The translations under genes were made by a program, and so were the position numbers. 64,000 nucleotides of DNA, taken from positions 186,001 through 250,000 of the forward strand of contig NZ_CP026994.1 in NCBI RefSeq assembly GCF_013407165.1. The letters run 5' to 3'. The DNA comes from Nitrosopumilus oxyclinae. GTDB taxonomy: Archaea > Thermoproteota > Nitrososphaeria > Nitrososphaerales > Nitrosopumilaceae. The notes beneath the pieces are model-generated. The model saw only the letters and a program-made list of their open reading frames with translations, ran no database searches and had not been told where the DNA came from. Below are positions 48,692-63,476 of the stretch, one piece after another (the stretch's first letter is position 1; each line of letters starts with the position of its first letter).

Positions 48692-49537
48692 TTATCCGTA
48701 TGATTCGTATTTAACTTCAAAGCTTCCATCTTCACGTTTGTCATGGTCTGTGACAAAACCTTTGGGATTCAAGAAATCCATTACCCCATCAATGGTTCCT
48801 TGCCATCCACAAACATAGAAAATTGTATTTTCTTTAGTTATTTTATCATCAATTAATTCTTCTAATGGTGAAATTCCATTGTCTCTTGGTCTTAGGAATG
48901 TCTCAACTCTACCAACTTGACCTGCCCATGATCTGTTAAACCATTCTTGTGGTCTACTAATTGCAGCTCTGTACCTGAAATTCCATTGATCTTTTCCTTT
49001 AGCAATACTTTCATTTTCAAGATTAGTTAGCAAATCTTTGTAACTTAATTCATCAACATAACTGGCACCATGTAAAACTATGATTTCACGTTTATCTCCA
49101 GTATCATGAAGATGTTGTGCAAAACTTACAAATGGTGCAAGACCTGTTCCTCCACCAATACAAACAATTCTACGGTTATCTTTTTCCCCATTTGCCAATT
49201 CTTCATTAATTAGTAAAGCTCTACCTGTTGGTTTTAACCAGAGAATTTCATCTCCTTCTTTTACATTAAATAATTGAGTAGTTAATCTACCTGGAAGTGG
49301 TTTTCTAACCCATCTGATAACTAATTCAATATAGTCTCTATTTTCTGGATGTGATGCAATTGAATATGCACGTCTAACAATTTTTCCATTTTCCACAGGA
49401 TTTGGTAATCCTAAAGTGATGAATTGACCTGCTTGATATTCTGGAACAGGTCCATCATTTGGAACCATTCTAATAATTACAAGATCTTCTTTTAATAATT
49501 GGACATAAGTGACAGTTGCTTTGTTATCTACGACCAT
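48692..49537 (-). CDS. ferredoxin-NADP reductase-like flavoprotein 1
   Basis: FAD- and NAD(P)H-binding reductase of 281 residues. The FAD site is RRAYSIASHPEN near residue 54; the nucleotide-binding part has CIGGGTGLAPFVSF near 125 and the C-terminal VCGWQGTIDGVMDFL. It is a close paralogue of the protein at 62634-63476. Both have a TTAAATATAT-type TATA box at the leaderless distance. Electron transfer between NADPH and the ferredoxins at 37001 and 37615 is a reasonable inference. Confidence 0.88.
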   Translation of the reverse strand: MVVDNKATVTYVQLLKEDLVIIRMVPNDGPVPEYQAGQFITLGLPNPVENGKIVRRAYSIASHPENRDYIELVIRWVRKPLPGRLTTQLFNVKEGDEILWLKPTGRALLINEELANGEKDNRRIVCIGGGTGLAPFVSFAQHLHDTGDKREIIVLHGASYVDELSYKDLLTNLENESIAKGKDQWNFRYRAAISRPQEWFNRSWAGQVGRVETFLRPRDNGISPLEELIDDKITKENTIFYVCGWQGTIDGVMDFLNPKGFVTDHDKREDGSFEVKYESYG

Positions 49538-60064: not shown

Positions 60065-60082
60065 TGAATAAAGAATAGAGAG

Positions 60083-60157
60083 CGGGTCTAAAGGGATTCG
60101 GACCCTTGACAACCGGATTAAAAGTCCGGTGCGCTACCTGGCTGCGCCATAGACCCT
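60083..60157 (-). tRNA. tRNA-Lys(TTT)
   Basis: 75-nt cloverleaf. The acceptor is GGGTCTA/TAGACCC and the anticodon stem CCGGA/TCCGG encloses loop CTTTTAA (anticodon TTT). The T arm is AGGGT/ATCCC-like with loop CCGAATC-type. Discriminator G; CCA not encoded. Confidence 0.92.
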
Positions 60158-60252: not shown

Positions 60253-60330
60253 GCCCTTGTAGTATAGCCCGGTCTAGAATTCGGCCCTGTCACGGCTGAG
60301 ACGCGTGTTCAAATCCCGCCGAGGGCGCCA
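60253..60330 (+). tRNA. tRNA-Asp(GTC), CCA encoded
   Basis: The acceptor is GCCCTTG/CGAGGGC with one T:G pair. The anticodon stem CGGCC/GGCTG encloses loop CTGTCAC (anticodon GTC). The T stem GCGTG/CCCGC has a T:C mismatch. Discriminator G is followed by an encoded CCA (60328-60330), unlike the other five tRNAs here. Confidence 0.92.
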
Positions 60331-60466
60331 TTATTTTCATTTTATACATTTTGATATCATTTACACCGATCAGAATAAAATTTCTAGAAAATATTGTTGA
60401 ATAAGGAATAGATTGCTGATGAATCTCACAAGAATATTAAAATTCAGGCAATTTTAGTAAATTTTG

Positions 60467-61270
60467 ATGTCTGAGGAGAAAAAAGAATCTAAAGTTGAAG
60501 CAAAATCTACTGACGATTCAACATCTAAAAAGTCATCTACAGATGAAACTGTAAGTTTAGAATCTAAAGCAACAGAAAAAGCAATATCCAAAACTGAAGT
60601 TGCAGACGTAGCAGTTGAAGAAGCAGAAATTGTTGTAAAAGATGCTATTGATGAAGTTAAAGTTGCCCAAGTTAAGGTGGCAGAAGAAGCAACATCAAAA
60701 GCTGAAGCTGCAGCTAAAGCAGTTGAAGAAGCAGAAATGGCAGTAAAAGAGGCCCTCGCTAAAGCAAATGCAGCAAAAGCAGAAGCCGAAGCAGCAGCTG
60801 AAGAAGAATACAAAGCAATAGCAGCTGAAGTAAAAGCAGATGCTGCTGCAAAATCAGATTACACATTCAAGAGACAAGGTGAAGAAATTTTTAGACGAGA
60901 TATGGGTGAGCCTGAATTTTGGTTAGATAAAAAAGACCGTTTCCCAAGACCTATTCTTTCAGCAGATGAACAGGAATCACTTACTAGAATAGCTGAAATT
61001 CCACAGGATCAAACTCCTGCATATGTTCCTCAACATGTTCTTAGTCCCGAATTTGCTGGTGTTTCAAATTATGAACGTGGAGTTGGTTCATTCCTAGAAG
61101 AAATGAAACAGAAACTTGAACAATTAAAAAATAATCCTGATCCAGACGAAAAAGAAATTAAAGAAACAGAGAATCAAATTATTTACTTGGAATCTTTACA
61201 TGAAAATTTCTATTTAGGGATGAATGTTTTTAGAACTGCCAAAGGTGGTCGGGACAAGATTAAAGCATAG
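60467..61270 (+). CDS. Ala/Glu/Lys-rich coiled-coil protein
   Basis: 267 residues. The first 130 are low-complexity Ala/Glu/Lys/Val sequence forming a long charged helix (VEEAEIVVKDAIDEVKVAQ, then EAAAKAVEEAEMAVKEAL). The second half is a conserved-looking domain with FKRQGEEIFRRDMGEPEFWL, a Pro-rich stretch and a final coiled coil. No membrane segment. The ATG at 60467 is taken; its stop touches the GTG of the GluTR-like gene, so the two proteins are made together. Function not recognised. Confidence 0.65.
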   Translation: MSEEKKESKVEAKSTDDSTSKKSSTDETVSLESKATEKAISKTEVADVAVEEAEIVVKDAIDEVKVAQVKVAEEATSKAEAAAKAVEEAEMAVKEALAKANAAKAEAEAAAEEEYKAIAAEVKADAAAKSDYTFKRQGEEIFRRDMGEPEFWLDKKDRFPRPILSADEQESLTRIAEIPQDQTPAYVPQHVLSPEFAGVSNYERGVGSFLEEMKQKLEQLKNNPDPDEKEIKETENQIIYLESLHENFYLGMNVFRTAKGGRDKIKA

Positions 61271-62356
61271 GTGAATGATTTGAGTCAAATCTCTTTTGAT
61301 GTAATAAATGCACGAGTAACTTTCAAAAATGTTCCAATTCATACAATATCCAAATTTACTTTCAAAGATGTTCCTGCAGCATGTGCAGAATTTAAAAAAA
61401 TACCTGGTGTTGAAGAATGTATTATTATTCAAACTGCAACTAGAGTAGAAATATTTACAGTAAGTAATGTTGAAACTGATGATTCTCCTGATGCAAGAAG
61501 AGCAGAAGGTAAAGCACTTGTTTTAAATCAAGTTAAAGATACTTGGGTATCTCTGTCATCATTAGAACAAATTGACATAGATCACTTTGATCAAACACTT
61601 GAAGTTTACAAGGGAGATGATGTTTATTTGAATCTATTAAGACTCGCATCTGGATTGGATTCGTTAGTTGTTGGATGGCAAAGTGTTTTTGATGATATTG
61701 TAAAGGCCTTAACGGATGCAAAGAATGCGGGTGTTTCAGGTAATATTCTCAATAAATTATTTGAAAGTGTTATTAGATTAGCTACTAGGATGAGAGATAC
61801 TACTGGTATTGCAAAAGATGTTGTCTCATTAGGTGATGTTGCAGTAAAACTTGTTGATGAAAAAGCAGGTCTTGATTCCAAAAAGAAAGTGTTGATAATT
61901 GGTACTGGTGAGCCTGCAGCTATGCTTGCAAAAACTTTGAGTAAAAAAGAAATTCCTTTTGATGTTGCAAGTCGAAGTTTAGAGCGTGCTACTGGATTTT
62001 CAACAATTCTTGGAGGAACCCCTGTTGATTTCAATGATGTTTTAATAGGATTTGATAAATACGACATTATTTTTGTTGCAACAACTTGTGATTATTTCTT
62101 AATTACATATGATCGAATTCGATTAGTTATGGAAGAAAAGAAAAAAGGTACGCTCATTTTAGATTTATCAGAACCACGAACTGTTGATGAGGGAATTACA
62201 GCACTACCTGGAATCAAATTATTGTTCCGAGATCAAATAGCAGAACTTTATGAAGAAAGCGTAAAAGCTAGAGTGGGTATTGTTCCTGCAGTAGAGAAAA
62301 TCATAGAAAAAGAACTACCTGTTTTATCTGCTAGAATGAAAAGATTGGACGCTTAA
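61271..62356 (+). CDS. glutamyl-tRNA reductase homologue lacking catalytic residues
   Basis: 361 residues aligned with GluTR (HemA) in order: N-terminal catalytic-type domain, LRLASGLDSLVVG, the helix FESVIRLATRMRDTTGI, and the Rossmann domain KKVLIIGTGEPAAMLAKTL. Key residues differ. The TCNR motif with the active Cys is TATR; the catalytic His before the LASGLDS segment is Tyr (VYLNLLRLASGLDS); and the GExQI segment is GWQSV. It should not catalyse the usual reaction, so a repurposed or regulatory role is inferred. The GTG start directly follows the stop of the coiled-coil gene. Confidence 0.75.
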   Translation: MNDLSQISFDVINARVTFKNVPIHTISKFTFKDVPAACAEFKKIPGVEECIIIQTATRVEIFTVSNVETDDSPDARRAEGKALVLNQVKDTWVSLSSLEQIDIDHFDQTLEVYKGDDVYLNLLRLASGLDSLVVGWQSVFDDIVKALTDAKNAGVSGNILNKLFESVIRLATRMRDTTGIAKDVVSLGDVAVKLVDEKAGLDSKKKVLIIGTGEPAAMLAKTLSKKEIPFDVASRSLERATGFSTILGGTPVDFNDVLIGFDKYDIIFVATTCDYFLITYDRIRLVMEEKKKGTLILDLSEPRTVDEGITALPGIKLLFRDQIAELYEESVKARVGIVPAVEKIIEKELPVLSARMKRLDA

Positions 62357-62361
62357 ATCTT

Positions 62362-62529
62362 CTATATTCCTTGTTTTCTTAAGAGGAATTGCATAACTGC
62401 TTCTTTAGAATAATCTATTCCATGCTCTTCATCTGTGTGTTTTCTAAATTCGTCAATAACTGACTCTGTTTCTCCCTCAGATACAAAATCACACTCAAAC
62501 CCATAATCATTACACTTGAGTTTTGTCAT
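62362..62529 (-). CDS. DUF1059 family small protein
   Basis: About 55 residues from the ATG at 62529: MTKLKCNDYGFECDFVSEG with the typical Cys pair, then VIDEFRKHTDEEHGI. DUF1059 proteins are small, often archaeal, of unknown function; the Cys/His pattern suggests metal binding. A TATA-like TTATATT lies about 25 nt upstream of 62529, so the longer frame to 62550 is not preferred. It converges with the GluTR-like gene (5-nt gap). Confidence 0.82.
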   Translation of the reverse strand: MTKLKCNDYGFECDFVSEGETESVIDEFRKHTDEEHGIDYSKEAVMQFLLRKQGI

Positions 62530-62633
62530 ATCTTTGTGAAAAATTATCAATATAAAAATCCACAGGTAAGTTATTTGAAATGAGTTACATCAGAAATCTC
62601 TAAGAGAAAAATTGACTAAAATTAATTGAATTT

Positions 62634-63476
62634 CTATCCGTATGATTCGAACTTGATACCAAAGCTTCCATCTGGTTTCTTTTCATGCTCAGTAACAAAT
62701 CCTTTTGGACCTAGGTGTTCAATTACCCCATCAATTGTTCCTTGATACCCACAAATGTAGATGATGGTATTATCTGGCGTTAATTCTTCTCCTACCATTT
62801 CTTCAACAGGTGATAATCCTGATTTTTTATCCGGCTTGAAGAATGATTCAACTCTGCCTACATGACCATTCCAAGATCTATTGAAAAATTCTTTTGGTCT
62901 ACTAATTGCTGCTCTATATCGAAAATTCCATTTATCCCTACCTTTTTTCTCACTTTCTAATTCTAAATCTGTTAATAGTCGTTTGTAGCTTAACTCATCG
63001 ACATAACTTGCCCCATGAAGAATAACTACTTCTCGTTTATCATTGGTATCGTGAAAATGCTTTGCAAATGCAATGAATGGTGCTAAACCTGTGCCTCCAC
63101 CTACACAAATTATTCTTCTGTTATCTTTTTGTCCGTTAGGTAACTTGTCACTAATTTGCAATGCAGCTCCAGTTGGATCTCCGAGAGATACTTCATCACC
63201 AACACTTAGATAAAATAATTCAGTAGTTACACGACCTGGAAGTGGTTTTCTTACCCATCTAATTACAAATTCAAAATAATCTCTATTTTCTGCATGTGAT
63301 GCAATAGAATATGCTCTTCTGACAACTTTTTTTTCTGCAGGAATTGGAAGACCTATCGTCAAAAATTGACCTGTCTTGTATTCTGGCATTCCTTTTTCTG
63401 GAACTAATCTGATAATTACCAGATCTTCTTTAAGTAACTCCCTATAGACGACTTTTGCTTTCATCTCAGTTACCAT
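62634..63476 (-). CDS. ferredoxin-NADP reductase-like flavoprotein 2
   Basis: 280-residue paralogue of the protein at 48692-49537, with RRAYSIASHAENRDY, WVRKPLPGR, CVGGGTGLAPFIAF and CGYQGTIDGVI at matching places. The main differences are in the FAD-side loop after the first domain (LGDPTGAAL versus WLKPTGRAL) and near the C-terminus. An AAATATATTT box lies about 26 nt before the ATG at 63476. Two copies suggest distinct ferredoxin partners or conditions. Confidence 0.88.
   Translation of the reverse strand: MVTEMKAKVVYRELLKEDLVIIRLVPEKGMPEYKTGQFLTIGLPIPAEKKVVRRAYSIASHAENRDYFEFVIRWVRKPLPGRVTTELFYLSVGDEVSLGDPTGAALQISDKLPNGQKDNRRIICVGGGTGLAPFIAFAKHFHDTNDKREVVILHGASYVDELSYKRLLTDLELESEKKGRDKWNFRYRAAISRPKEFFNRSWNGHVGRVESFFKPDKKSGLSPVEEMVGEELTPDNTIIYICGYQGTIDGVIEHLGPKGFVTEHEKKPDGSFGIKFESYG

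Follow-up and report, generated by a model that had tools for sequence, protein, structure and literature searches.

The locus and its genes

The analysed window is a stretch of 64,000 nucleotides from the complete genome (1.585 Mb) of Nitrosopumilus oxyclinae (NZ_CP026994.1, positions 186,001-250,000). Close to its end, an open reading frame on the forward strand (61271-62356, start codon GTG) encodes a protein of 361 amino acids, which profile searches and alignment identified as a paralog of glutamyl-tRNA reductase (GluTR) without the catalytic Cys and without the dimer domain (A56, T57, R58, N121, W136). It is referred to as pseudo-GluTR in the following. Directly upstream on the same strand lies the gene of a coil partner (60467-61270, with an alternative TTG start at 60464), comprising a variable Ala/Glu-rich N-terminus and a conserved C-terminal domain (60869-61267). 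The stop codon of this gene (61268-61270) abuts the GTG of pseudo-GluTR, as had been seen in the initial annotation. Downstream on the reverse strand, FNR2 (62634-63476) encodes a second FNR-like flavoprotein with FAD_binding_6 and NAD_binding_1 domains, which belongs to a clade linked to pseudo-GluTR. The other FNR-like flavoprotein gene of the window (48695-49537, reverse strand) is 67% identical to it. A DUF1059 gene (62362-62550, reverse strand) is convergent with pseudo-GluTR; it is often part of the block within the genus and is present in many loci, but not in all. Between argH and the coil gene, genes for tRNA-Lys(TTT) (60082-60156, reverse strand) and tRNA-Asp(GTC) (60253-60330, forward strand) are located.

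The same genome contains a canonical HemA of 423 amino acids (G000:C1:485.6-486.8 kb), which keeps TCNR, HH, GEDQI and the GlutR_dimer domain and is situated in a heme-gene cluster, flanked by a SirC-like gene and hemB. Pseudo-GluTR is 45% identical to it over the common part of 352 residues. The possibility that pseudo-GluTR is the sole HemA of the genome is thereby ruled out. In one 95%-complete draft genome (G284, contig C62), the Cys-less paralog was found and canonical HemA was not, probably due to a missing contig.

Family, fold and altered active site

In the Pfam searches, pseudo-GluTR matched GlutR_N with an E-value of 1.7e-26 (93.2 bits, cut-off 27) and the Rossmann domain Shikimate_DH (PF01488) with an E-value of 1.9e-18 (67.3 bits, cut-off 24.3). 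No Pfam match was obtained for GlutR_dimer, and PF00745 occurs in this genome in canonical HemA only. The M. kandleri enzyme 1GPJ was matched by phmmer with an E-value of 1e-34, and it was also the top PDB fold match (E 6.5e-23) of the predicted model, which has a pLDDT of 79. Together, the Pfam domains and both matches to 1GPJ confirm the proposed homology to GluTR, including the conserved fold order. A comparison with GluTRs of the HemA/GtrR type (TIGR01035; M. kandleri 1GPJ; Arabidopsis 4N7R, 5CHE and 5YJL) showed homology over residues about 10-359 with an identical domain order, while the nucleophilic Cys, the Asn and the GE motif are absent, an insert is present, and the score of 182.2 bits against NCBIfam hemA (TIGR01035) stays below the cut-off of 209.55 bits. 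Window-type paralogs (about 358 amino acids) also lack the C-terminal dimer region, whereas the deep members of the group (412-426 amino acids) align over the canonical C-terminus.

The alignment bore out the initially described changes from TCNR to TATR (A56, T57, R58; codons of residues 55-58 at 61433-61444) and from GExQI to GWQSV (W136, S138). In contrast, a proposed replacement of the essential His by Tyr has to be corrected, as the residue aligned with H84 of M. kandleri is Asn121 and not Tyr119. After the TATR strand, the paralog contains an insert of approximately 18 residues (residues about 64-82, 61460-61516); D74 and R76 in this region are conserved in at least 95% of the paralogs, and the positions are gapped in HemA.

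Across the clade, Cys was found at the catalytic site in 0 of 94 aligned copies (Ala in 66, Ser in 17, others in the remainder), while the neighbouring Arg (R58) was kept in all 94. The Asn of TCNR is replaced in every aligned paralog, and so is the Glu of the GE motif (Lys in 58, Trp in 22, others). The site of the essential His is variable, with His in 55 copies, Asn in 34, Arg in four, and Ser, Leu and Gln in one each. The chemistry of GluTR requires a Cys thioester (PMC7242693; PMC6399207), which makes a GluTR activity of pseudo-GluTR very unlikely. It could be considered that pseudo-GluTR is still active as a GluTR, through another Cys or by a water-based route, since C50 is present in 97% of the paralogs. 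However, 78% of canonical HemAs also contain this residue, alongside the real nucleophile, and C50 as the replacing nucleophile was consequently rejected. Moreover, the loss extends to the GE motif, to N53 and often to the His, and a canonical HemA is present, so that such an activity is considered highly improbable.

The presence of another HemA, the absence of a paralog-specific replacement Cys and the clade-wide loss lend good support to the initial view of a pseudo-enzyme made together with the coil protein. Pseudo-GluTR is almost certainly a pseudo-enzyme with respect to the GluTR reaction. According to this interpretation, it would be unable to form the glutamyl thioester, so that we infer a pseudo-enzyme for ALA synthesis.

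Descent, conservation and selection

Relatives of the paralog were found across genera of the same (Nitrosopumilaceae-like) family and in named records of Nitrosopumilus, Nitrosarchaeum and Nitrosopelagicus. In the other families of the order, a single HemA-like match each was obtained, except for two drafts (G276 and G381) with two matches. In a tree of 67 proteins, all 37 paralogs formed a single clade with a support of 100/100, nested among the HemAs of the family (f1). The Cys-less form was thus born by a duplication of HemA inside this family. The same tree settled in the affirmative whether the TATR form is a clade of its own, as the loss of Cys is clade-wide and not unique to the sequence in the window.

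Within the genus, the pairwise dN/dS of the paralog ranged from 0.04 to 0.13, and the paralog is under strong purifying selection. A decaying pseudogene was rejected based on these values and on the intact frames throughout the clade. In genus g16 (L054, about 1229-1409), none of the codons ATG, GTG and TTG occurs where pseudo-GluTR would be expected to start, and probably CTG or another rare start codon is used. A real N-terminal truncation was rejected in this case: since the frame is open upstream without ATG, GTG or TTG, the apparent N-terminal loss is a start-codon issue.

Altogether, 39 sites are conserved in HemA and the paralog alike, including the Rossmann glycines G211 and G213. The sites C52, N53, E114, Q116, S167 and P252 are changed in the paralog compared to HemA, and D74, R76, L83, H105, Q108 and D274 are new, near-invariant residues of the paralog. 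The retained Arg, the Rossmann glycines and the fold suggest a binding role. The conserved Rossmann glycines would also fit an NAD(P)-dependent enzyme of a new kind, either a dehydrogenase or a reductase, which acts on another substrate without Cys chemistry and uses the co-inherited FNR2 as electron partner; D74, R76, H105, Q108 and D274 could build its new site. Contrary to this explanation, both the His site (H/N/R/S/L/Q) and the Arg of the second Rossmann strand are variable, and D74, R76, H105 and Q108 are positioned in or at loops of low confidence in the predicted model, which are more reminiscent of binding segments. A new dehydrogenase is therefore regarded as unlikely. In GluTRs, the Arg of the second Rossmann strand contacts the phosphate of NADPH. 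It is present in just 14 of 42 paralogs, and this variability across the clade also weakens a fixed role as NADPH sensor.

Coil partner, FNR2 and the carboxylase operon

In all 74 loci with both genes annotated, coil and pseudo-GluTR are direct neighbours with the same orientation, nearly all with gaps of -4 to 20 bp. While the N-terminus of the coil partner is variable, its C-terminal domain is strongly conserved (IFRR.MGEPEF ... SNYE ... ENY..GMNVFRTAKGGR). The partner matched no Pfam family, and a search with its core at E-values up to 10 gave chance matches only, with no match to ACC epsilon. No convincing relative of solved structure was found by sequence or by fold, the query for the latter being a model of low confidence (pLDDT 63) with predicted disorder. 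Outside of the AOA lineages, only matches with E-values of about 0.002-0.004 elsewhere in the phylum were obtained, which were taken as noise.

Co-inheritance was determined in 76 genomes of the family (f1) with a completeness of at least 90% from outside the window genus. According to presence calls, which were read by hand from match counts and E-values and are not phylogenetically independent, the long coil partner (E 1e-35 or better) was present in 41 of 41 genomes with the paralog and in 0 of 35 without it, where a short form or no match was found. At least two FNR-like copies were present in 33 of the 41 genomes with the paralog, compared to 0 of the 35 without it (Fisher p 4e-14, uncorrected for kinship). 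Since both states occur within g2 and also within g16, the match between paralog and partner is not merely one between genera. Apart from one extra FNR copy in L069, the FNRs of the block formed one clade in a quick tree (SH-aLRT 85), which also includes the unlinked FNR2 of G082, located away from the block. FNR2 is often encoded on the strand opposite to pseudo-GluTR. Coil partner, pseudo-GluTR and FNR2 are a co-inherited three-gene block of duplicated or enlarged housekeeping genes. The abutting genes on the same strand and the co-inheritance also speak well for the proposal that pseudo-GluTR is made together with the coil protein, and the two likely form a physical pair.

In relatives without the paralog, the last approximately 65 residues of the coil partner recur as a stand-alone protein of 67-193 amino acids. 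In nearly all loci of these genomes with complete context, its gene lies directly before the genes for carboxyltransferase, biotin carboxylase and BCCP; the naming of the carboxylase is based on sequence reading, gene order and one Pfam search in the window genome (PF01039, E 1.5e-190). The C-terminal domain of the coil partner is an enlarged form of this small protein from the operon of the acetyl-/propionyl-CoA carboxylase. The stand-alone core is a candidate for a small subunit of this CO2-fixing enzyme. The Epsilon/AccE subunits of actinobacterial acyl-CoA carboxylases offer an analogy, being likewise small proteins encoded with carboxylase genes, whereas the partner core showed no Pfam match to ACC epsilon in the search described above.

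In genera g10, g11, g12 and g16, the gene order is (primase-)RFC-zinc protein-coil-pseudo-GluTR-FNR2-carboxylase, so that the coil gene fills the exact slot of the stand-alone protein. At L055 (g11), the FNR2 frame was unlabelled in the gene-order run and was located at G132:C1:1649050, and L061 lacks the upstream part due to the end of the contig. In g1, g3, g4 and g9, the block is found upstream of the carboxylase, whose operon lacks the stand-alone core, and no copy other than the coil protein is present. The same arrangement was found in the window genome: its carboxylase gene begins at 253.3 kb, shortly past the end of the window, with the block about 6 kb upstream. In g2, g20, g22 and the deep part of g9, the block is located away from the carboxylase genes, though mostly still together in g2, g20 and deep g9. 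In two genomes of g2, the short core is retained alongside the long coil. Membership in a defence system was rejected, as no PADLOC match was found.

The stand-alone core beside the carboxylase and the position of the block inside the operon in several genera favour, as context, a role at the carboxylase over one in tetrapyrrole synthesis. A regulator of the latter would be a dead paralog that binds HemA, HemL or Glu-tRNA and tunes the formation of ALA, like plant GBP and FLU do on GluTR. The descent from HemA as well as the retained fold and substrate-side Arg (R58) agree with such a function, and the dimer-domain C-terminal region in the deep members indicates that heterodimers with HemA were once possible. 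Plant GluTR is indeed under the control of bound proteins; however, GBP and FLU bind it as separate proteins and are not duplicates of GluTR, so that these non-catalytic proteins, which likewise affect tetrapyrrole flux, provide a functional analogy only (PMC4726326). Against a tetrapyrrole regulator, no heme genes were found near pseudo-GluTR at any locus seen, the dimer domain is lost in window-type members, partner and FNR2 have no known link to tetrapyrroles, and HemA is unchanged in genomes without the paralog. Judged from gene context, the tetrapyrrole regulation or tRNA binding suggested in the initial annotation finds no direct support and has less backing than a carboxylase role, and a tetrapyrrole regulator is improbable.

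Rather than a heme enzyme, pseudo-GluTR is probably a protein with a regulatory or accessory role. A function at the carboxylase, as inferred from gene context, is a real possibility, if still short of probable. As a mechanism, pseudo-GluTR would fold as the catalytic and Rossmann body of GluTR and form a complex with the coil protein, whose C-terminal helical hairpin would dock it on the CO2-fixing carboxylase of the 3-hydroxypropionate/4-hydroxybutyrate cycle. At this enzyme, pseudo-GluTR would, together with FNR2, most likely serve as an accessory or regulatory subunit, with a nucleotide or redox ligand sensed in its retained Rossmann pocket. Taken as a whole, the reading of Cys-less HemA paralog, coil and FNR2 as an accessory or regulatory unit at the carboxylase is put forward tentatively, while the sensing of a nucleotide or redox ligand by pseudo-GluTR is rather doubtful. 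Without ligand sensing, pseudo-GluTR and coil could act as a pure structural scaffold that holds an assembly together. The Ala-rich coil, the disorder in the partner model and the variable pocket residues would suit this, but the Rossmann glycine motif is conserved throughout the clade, and a mere scaffold is considered quite unlikely. The most far-reaching version, in which a HemA duplicate was recruited, along with a small carboxylase subunit in enlarged form and a flavin reductase that had also been duplicated, into a carboxylase accessory complex that links CO2 fixation to the redox state of cofactors in marine ammonia-oxidizing archaea, is speculative and somewhat unlikely in its entirety. 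Dead-paralog regulators such as the trypanosome AdoMetDC prozyme are likewise duplicated enzymes kept after the loss of catalysis; the prozyme activates its own parent enzyme, whereas the context of pseudo-GluTR points to a different enzyme (PMC5201418).

Pseudo-GluTR is a real and conserved GluTR pseudo-enzyme and apparently undescribed, as no description was found in the open-access literature searched, including a search by Nmar locus tags guessed from gene order. A Cys-less second GluTR copy is present in many marine ammonia-oxidizing archaea. Archaea of the Nitrosopumilus type are among the most abundant cells of the ocean, and their CO2-fixation cycle is very energy-efficient. A function of pseudo-GluTR in CO2 fixation is plausible, and the joint inheritance of a conserved dead GluTR, a protein of the carboxylase operon and an additional flavoprotein suggests that an accessory complex acting at the carboxylation step, or close to it, has gone unrecognised. 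Pathway reconstructions would be misled by database entries that name the products of the paralog genes 'glutamyl-tRNA reductase'. The stand-alone core itself represents an unannotated family in AOA without the paralog (L178-L192 and L194-L197; e.g. L178:4983-5255).
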